DNA from: Halopiger goleimassiliensis
Lineage (GTDB): Archaea > Halobacteriota > Halobacteria > Halobacteriales > Natrialbaceae
Reading direction: 5' to 3'
Length of the DNA: 64,000 nucleotides
NCBI RefSeq assembly: GCF_000455345.1
Contig: NZ_HG315690.1
Span: 2,555,360-2,619,359 of the forward strand
How positions within the stretch are numbered: the stretch's first letter is position 1; each line of letters opens with the position of its first letter. Positions 34,276-34,716 of the stretch are shown in pieces. The translations under genes and the position numbers were made by a program. The notes under the pieces were generated by a model. It made no database searches. It was given only the letters and a program-made list of their open reading frames with translations, and was not told the origin of the DNA.

Positions 34276-34298
34276 GCGGGCCGGGCGCGATTTGAACC
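34276..34298 (-). repeat. Partial copy of the tRNA-Lys 3' end (distal), att-like
   Basis: The 20-bp GGGCCGGGCGCGATTTGAAC (34278-34297) is identical to the T-arm/acceptor 3' half of the tRNA-Lys at 34643-34716. The remainder of the tRNA is absent. A shorter inverted copy TTCAAATCGC follows near 34357. Such 3'-end duplications typically mark the far attachment site left by an integrase that used the tRNA. Confidence 0.6.
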
Positions 34299-34406
34299 AC
34301 GCCGAGACGTTCCGGGTCACTCGCTTCGCTCGTTTCCCGGGCTGCGACTCGTCTACTTCAAATCGCTGTAGCCGCTTTGCTCCTCGCGTCATTGCTCGGA
34401 GCAAAA

Positions 34407-34430
34407 GCGGGCCGGGCGCGATTTGAACAC
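34407..34430 (-). repeat. Partial copy of the tRNA-Lys 3' end (proximal), att-like
   Basis: The 22-base phrase spanning 34409-34430 (GGGCCGGGCGCGATTTGAAC, then AC) is identical to the 3' half of tRNA-Lys. It is preceded by AAAAGC as in the distal copy, and GTTCAAATCG lies inverted near 34497. The spacing to the distal copy is 131 bp. Parts of the intervening sequence (ACGTTCCGGG, GCTTCGCTCG, GGCTGCGAC) are also shared, so the unit looks tandemly duplicated. Confidence 0.6.
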
Positions 34431-34532
34431 ACGGTCGGACGTTCCGGGCGTGCGGCCTCGCTTCGCTCGGCCGGTCCGGGGCTGCGACCTCCCTGCGTTC
34501 AAATCGTGCCTGCCGGTTCACTCACCGATTCG

Positions 34533-34635
34533 CCGTCGCGTGGCGCTCACTCCGTTCACGCCACGCTCCGCTCATCGGTTCGTTGTCTTCGAAAATCGAA
34601 GATTTTCGCGATGACGAAAGAGCGAAGCTCTTTCG
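34533..34635 (-). terminator. Three consecutive hairpins downstream of tRNA-Lys
   Basis: Reading with the tRNA (leftward), it meets CGAAAGAGC-GAA-GCTCTTTCG (34615-34635), CGAAAATC-GAA-GATTTTCG (34590-34608) and GCGTGGCG with CGCCACGC (about 34538-34566). The first two stems are perfect, 9 and 8 pairs with identical GAA loops. They probably serve in tRNA 3' processing or termination, though termination by hairpin is not established in archaea. Confidence 0.45.
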
Positions 34636-34642
34636 ATCCACA

Positions 34643-34716
34643 CGGGCCGGGCGCGATTTGAACACGCGACCGTCTGGTTAAAAGCCAGACGCTCTGCCAG
34701 ACTGAGCTACCGGCCC
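34643..34716 (-). tRNA. tRNA-Lys (anticodon TTT)
   Basis: Reading the minus strand from 34716: acceptor GGGCCGG pairs with CCGGCCC, the D-arm has TAGCTCAGTCTGGCAGAGC, the anticodon stem TCTGG/CCAGA carries loop CTTTTAA (anticodon TTT), and the T-arm is GCGTGTTCAAATCGCGC. The discriminator is G and CCA is not encoded. A TATA-like GTTTAATC (about 34741-34748, minus strand) lies about 28 bp upstream. No intron is visible. Two partial 3' copies lie downstream. Confidence 0.96.

Follow-up and report, generated by a model that had tools for sequence, protein, structure and literature searches.

Archaeal integrases of the pNOB8, SNJ2 and pT26-2 types insert at the 3' ends of tRNA genes, and a review of such elements includes integrase-less remnants (PMC8371274). 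The locus analyzed here lies in a window of 64,000 nucleotides from Halopiger goleimassiliensis, where a tRNA-Lys(UUU) gene is followed by repeated copies of its own 3' tail. It resembles those elements in that insertion is at the 3' end, the tail borne by the element would restore the tRNA, the old tail stays downstream, and relatives have the empty site. In contrast, the arrays described here have no genes or integrase, consist of units of ~100 bp with conserved hairpins and an internal inverted tail, and stand in tandem at about half of the tRNA genes of nearly every haloarchaeon. We read the window locus, with a probability of roughly 60%, as an array of two gene-less "tRNA-tail cassettes" produced by site-specific insertion at tRNA T-loops. 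The arrays are best regarded as a variant form of integration at tRNA sites, although the chance that they are a separate kind of system is substantial.

Integrons also exist in archaea, and haloarchaea go unmentioned in the available text of the report of them (PMC9668308). The arrays share with integrons a polarized growth at a fixed platform (here in five shifted arrays, with two irregular ones), imperfect hairpins that are conserved mainly in the arms, and a strand-biased structure. They differ in that the platform is a tRNA gene, ORFs are absent, and an integron integrase was not seen at the arrays. The core site of integron attC is GTTRRRY / RYYYAAC, while the arms of the units read GTTCRAATC / GATTYGAAC and do not fit GTTRRRY. 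The PATEs of Haloquadratum walsbyi are likewise palindrome-bearing, non-coding mobile DNA of a haloarchaeon, but they have IS605-related termini, and the available text describes neither a tRNA target nor tail copies for them (PMC3119063). Both PATEs and integrons were considered as the family of the arrays and were not adopted; assignment as a CRISPR array was also set aside, because the inserts have one hairpin plan and the diagnostic tails are displaced rather than duplicated. In Haloferax gibbonsii LR2-5, 11 partial tRNAs were counted beside full copies (PMC7921747). These are probably the same direct copies, for which the available text describes no unit, inverted copy, hairpin, array or class-wide family (PMC7921747). 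We found no earlier description of the arrays in the open-access literature, where isolated partial tRNAs beside full copies are known.

The array behind tRNA-Lys(UUU)

The 20-mer GGGCCGGGCGCGATTTGAAC has one exact occurrence within the tRNA itself (34644-34663) and two further ones at 34409-34428 and 34278-34297; a match with up to three mismatches appeared in none of 100 shuffles. The original prediction, made from the letters of the window, had named partial 3'-end copies of tRNA-Lys at 34278-34297 and from 34409 on with a spacing of 131 bp. The copies are real, the spacing is correct, and 131 bp is one whole repeating unit. The prediction saw the two direct copies but overlooked two inverted ones between them (34497-34510 and 34357-34368). 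On the tRNA strand, each unit runs from A (a T-run and a spacer hairpin) through X' (inverted tail) and C (core hairpin) to X2 (direct tail). Because X' pairs with X2, X'-C-X2 forms a single long hairpin, of which each X2 is the 3' arm. X' is the sole long inverted repeat in the units, and it is internal and derived from the target. The features of the locus, all on the minus strand, are as follows.

34643-34716, minus strand: tRNA-Lys(UUU) gene, the attB-like platform (ARAGORN; Rfam RF00005, 68.6 bits)
34644-34663, minus strand: X, the functional tail GTTCAAATCGCGCCCGGCCC, from the T-loop to the acceptor end
34511-34642, minus strand: A1, spacer hairpin of unit 1
34497-34510, minus strand: X'1, inverted tail copy GGCACGATTTGAAC, found as an inverted repeat
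34429-34496, minus strand: C1, core hairpin of unit 1, GCAGGGAGGTCGCAGC..ACGTCCGACCGTG
34409-34428, minus strand: X2 of unit 1, the first displaced direct tail copy
34369-34408, minus strand: A2, T-run and spacer hairpin of unit 2 (GCTTTTGCTCC-GAGCAATGACGCGA-GGAGCAAAGC and a short spacer)
34357-34368, minus strand: X'2, inverted copy of unit 2, CAGCGATTTGAA
34298-34356, minus strand: C2, core hairpin of unit 2, GTAGACGAGTCGCAGC..GAACGTCTCGGCGTG
34278-34297, minus strand: X2 of unit 2, the second and older displaced tail copy
34240-34277, minus strand: decayed A-type hairpin beyond the last copy, GCTTTTACTGGCGAACACATCGAGAACGGAGTGACTGG, read from the sequence

Both units have relatives behind other tRNA-Lys genes. 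The first unit downstream of tRNA-Lys(CUU) in the same genome matches unit 2 at ~85-88% identity; the two tRNAs have an identical tail, and C2 is close kin of the core of the tRNA-Lys(CUU) unit. Unit 2 scores 69 bits with the covariance model described below (G000:C1:2589642-2589729, where G000 is the genome of the window). The A1 and core type of unit 1 also occur behind tRNA-Lys in another genus of the family (G046, L106), and the C1 core type behind tRNA-Lys in several other genera, including those of other families (L112, L116). An Rfam scan of the window at the gathering threshold returned the tRNA alone, with no known RNA family matching the units. A search for PF00589 near the window array gave no match, and the matches in the same genome sit elsewhere.

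Three extra hairpins are nested in A1 of unit 1, at 34615-34635, 34590-34608 and 34540-34564, and none of them is present in the similar A1 of L106. Within this stretch (34540-34635), one hairpin has a GAGCTTCGCTC stem and another contains GAACGGAGTGAG, a pattern of hairpin-in-hairpin insertion. Just past the array, positions 34106-34208 hold a long imperfect inverted repeat, GAAAGGGCGAGCCGCTGTCGCG / CGCGACAGCGGCGAGGGCTTTC, which is not of the unit type.

Tail-matched units across the class Halobacteria

BLAST of the window array against its own genome led to regions flanking further tRNA genes. Across four genomes that represent three families, 27 of 44, 22 of 43, 20 of 42 and 27 of 42 tRNAs have at least one copy of their own tail within 400 bp downstream. 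Swapping tails between tRNAs of the same genomes reduced the count to a mean of 1.3-3.6, and the upstream side gave 0-1. A scan of every tRNA showed that the downstream copies mostly fit the adjacent tRNA's own tail better than any other. We extracted 164 units from the four genomes, with a median body of 103 bp. The copy number per tRNA ranges from 0 to 5, with a five-unit array at L148, and the array at L227 has the order P-Q-P with identical outer units.

Within the class Halobacteria, a covariance model of X'-C-X2, trained on 18 units of the window's genome, matches 57 of 58 genera (144 of 146 genomes). In a sample of the phylum, its matches fall in 42 of the 43 genomes that belong to the order and in 0 of ~204 others. 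Core modules are common to tRNAs with different tails, and conserved cores recur at many tRNAs and in many families. Grouping of the unit types by tRNA versus by genome gave a mixed picture with no clean vertical or horizontal signal. Taken together, the window array looks like one example of an undescribed class-wide insertion system. The sole two of the 146 haloarchaeal genomes without a model match, G014 and G129, both have a XerA-like recombinase.

Gain and loss of units between congeners

Gain and loss were compared in G050 and G079, which are congeners of another genus than that of the window. Behind unit-bearing tRNAs, the downstream DNA of the two genomes is replaced right from the tRNA end; behind unit-free tRNAs it is often conserved (99% for Ala-TGC, 91% for Leu-CAG and 90% for Ser-GCT). 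Pairs of filled and empty sites were found at Lys-CTT, Ala-GGC, Arg-GCG, Pro, Asn, Val-CAC, Met and others, with the flank resuming after X2. At Lys-CTT, the tail and flank of G050 align to G079 from X2 on, and an extra unit of ~225 bp lies between in G079. The situation is the other way round at Ala-GGC, Arg-GCG and Met, where the extra unit is in G050. At Ala-GGC, Asp, Gly-GCC, Met and Val-TAC, the common units are offset by one register, which places the extra unit next to the tRNA, while Arg-GCG and Ser-TGA have an irregular unit order with no simple shift. Judged from these alignments, the comparisons show that new cassettes enter at the 3' end of the tRNA, with the resident tail staying downstream as X2 and the old flank directly after it. 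They also show that an array extends from its tRNA end and that its units turn over between members of one genus.

These results bear out two expectations raised for the window, namely repeated insertion at the tRNA 3' end, which the filled and empty sites of the congeners support, and a hot spot at which relatives differ, since units are gained and lost between congeners at several tRNAs. The check proposed along with them, a search for like units at other tRNA genes, was also positive, with tail-matched units behind about half of the tRNAs in four genomes.

The genes for tRNA-Ala(UGC), tRNA-Leu(CAG) and tRNA-Ser(GCU) are unit-free in G000, G007, G050 and G079, and the DNA downstream of them is conserved between G050 and G079. 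Some tRNAs may be protected from units or counter-selected against them.

Displacement of the resident tail

The direction of tail replacement can be read where X and X2 differ. The tRNA-Met gene of G050 has the tail GAGTGGG, and both of its X2 copies read GAGCGGG, as in the tRNA of G079, which lacks that array. Likewise, X2 behind tRNA-Ser(CGA) of G050 carries the state of G079. The third case is a protein gene. The 3' end of aspS, which encodes aspartyl-tRNA synthetase, has the X-X'-C-X2 architecture (L218 at about 1200-1490; G000:C1:2422000-2422290), and its three successive tails in the genome of the window are three different synonymous alleles, the second of which fits the codons of another species. 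At all three loci X and X2 differ in the way that displacement predicts, and behind the two tRNAs X2 keeps the older allele; thus the newcomer brings its tail and pushes the resident one aside, as integrases do. Met, Ser-CGA and aspS are the three diagnostic cases, and the other tRNAs with differing tails are uninformative.

Among 80 named haloarchaea, aspS gave two weak direct-copy signals and no more, so it is a rare target. The last ~16 codons of aspS (L398-L477) show patchy codon usage across haloarchaea, for example GAGGCTGTGTTGTTCCC versus GAAGCGGTCCTCTTCCC, which looks like the outcome of repeated tail swaps through integration.

Two kinds of T-loop bear on the position of the exchange. 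An extra base, GTTCA(C/T)AATC, is seen in the X2 T-loops of many tRNAs and genomes (L016, L020, L096, L097, L099, L104, L117, L178, L249 and L261) and is possibly a footprint of exchange. A TTCGA|ATC chimera also occurs among the X2 T-loops. Together, these forms would place the exchange inside the T-loop. At Val-CAC of G079, the same unusual T-loop is found in X, X' and X2, which suggests conversion, local copying or some other re-matching of the arms.

The Val-CAC case is also what an origin by replication without a dedicated recombinase would lead one to expect. Hairpins at the 3' end would stall forks, fold-back or template switching would copy the tail in inverted (X') and direct (X2) form, and gene conversion would keep both alike, so that X' and X2 track the adjacent tRNA even for odd T-loops. 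Local arms on cores common across tRNA types, as well as the nested hairpins in A1 of the window, are in line with such copying. We nevertheless consider it unlikely, because the conserved cores at many tRNAs and in many families have a non-local origin, and because three distinct tail alleles at aspS and regular unit boundaries are at odds with it.

Hairpin structure and strand

The X'-C-X2 pairing holds in 96.7% of cells, and 13 of 18 pairs are changed on both sides. The covariation score is 0.419, compared with at most 0.073 for slid controls; part of it comes from arms that copy the tRNA, and the core helices covary too. Of the 164 units, 70 have tandem-GA hairpins on the tRNA-sense strand and 13 on the antisense strand, compared with 5 in shuffles. 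G-U versus A-C mismatches stand at 77:21 in the model-selected matches and 99:49 in a model-free set, and these strand counts are non-independent, since they include clonal variants and since the model that selected the first set favors G-U pairs. The strand that folds appears to be the tRNA-sense strand, as single-stranded DNA or as RNA.

If the folded form were RNA, the units could be functional trailers of tRNA genes with a putative role in processing, termination or regulation, in which X' would pair with the tRNA tail or with X2. The near-universal presence in the class, the strong covariation, and the bias of G-U pairs and GA motifs to the sense strand agree with this, but about half of the tRNAs are unit-free, with a set that varies by genome, congeners lose or replace units at the same tRNA, the copy number runs from 0 to 5, and a like structure lies behind the protein gene aspS. 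According to the original prediction, a conserved structure at the same place in all relatives would have pointed to such an RNA. The structure is indeed kept class-wide, while its positions and copy numbers already change among members of one genus, and we regard a trailer function as improbable.

Search for a recombinase and a donor

A survey of PF00589 gave no clear link between any recombinase and the units. A XerA-like protein is 55-86% identical across five genomes (G007, G050, G079 and two genomes without detected units) and was dropped as a discriminating recombinase, because those two genomes have it too. No free circle or donor emerged when units from two other loci, Leu-UAG and aspS, were compared by BLAST with phage and plasmid collections; one 47-bp match was obtained, to a Natrinema plasmid without an annotated tRNA. 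A pattern scan of viral contigs for the core motif was too loose, with matches mostly due to chance, and a second pattern gave 6 contigs.

At L216 49-1325 (G000:C2:272848-274124), a degraded tRNA tail, GTTCAAAACTGCGCCGGCCCAC, lies close to the end of a gene for a tyrosine recombinase and is followed by a unit. This is a decayed true integrative element in front of an array.

Such elements raise the question of whether the units are scars of ordinary proviruses or integrative elements with deleted interiors, as had been supposed for the window. Duplication of tRNA 3' ends by integrative elements of haloarchaea is described in two reports (PMC7921747, PMC8371274), and the integrase-linked tail fragment ahead of the unit at L216 is one decayed instance. 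On the side of the element, however, that tail lacks a core hairpin. Random deletion would not give tiny units with a single hairpin plan at hundreds of sites, and the comparisons of empty and filled sites, in which single units of 100-230 bp are gained between congeners, largely refute this origin. What comes and goes is the gene-less unit of ~70-230 bp itself, and an origin from larger deleted elements is thus very unlikely. CRISPR- or casposase-like insertion with the tail as a target-site duplication is the least credible account: growth next to the tRNA and the repeat-like X copies recall acquisition at a leader end, and copies would match the target automatically, but the allele differences between X and X2 at Met, Ser-CGA and aspS fit displacement, X2 T-loops are chimeric, and X' within the insert matches the target too.

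A model of cassette insertion

For the preferred reading, insertion of cassettes at the T-loop, we propose the following scheme. A cassette of ~70-230 bp would carry a tRNA 3' tail followed by spacer hairpin A, X', core hairpin C and the initial T-loop bases (GTTCR). A tyrosine recombinase would swap strands within the T-loop (TTCR/AAT), with a nick predicted between R57 and A58, perhaps via a circular intermediate. The tail borne by the cassette would restore the tRNA, and the old tail would be pushed downstream as X2. Such a T-loop reaction, as used by tRNA-integrating elements, would give polarized, integron-like arrays. The enzyme may be a host XerA-like recombinase or the integrase of a mobile genetic element. 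More speculatively, the X'-C-X2 hairpin formed by the tRNA-sense strand could be the recombination substrate, by analogy with integron attC; a folded substrate would explain why X' has to match X2, and X2 the tRNA.

Simple same-tail integration fails to explain cores common to tRNAs with different tails, and the arms must somehow be re-matched. The wider proposal, a class-wide cassette system with tRNA platforms and gene-less hairpin cassettes that are recombined as folded single strands and whose arms are re-matched for each host tRNA, is offered tentatively, at somewhat less than even odds. If true, haloarchaea would have a second analogue of the integron, one free of genes, and the replacement of tRNA 3' halves would be due to an unrecognized force.

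Implications for haloarchaeal tRNA genes

What began as a local oddity becomes a class-wide phenomenon, in which fast-evolving arrays are found at about half of haloarchaeal tRNA genes. The arrays can replace the functional 3' half of a tRNA and, in one case, the end of an essential synthetase gene. They would account for many of the "partial tRNAs" left in haloarchaeal annotations. The arrays are also ready-made, polarized records of insertion, and they make the evolution of tRNA tails by cassette replacement testable.
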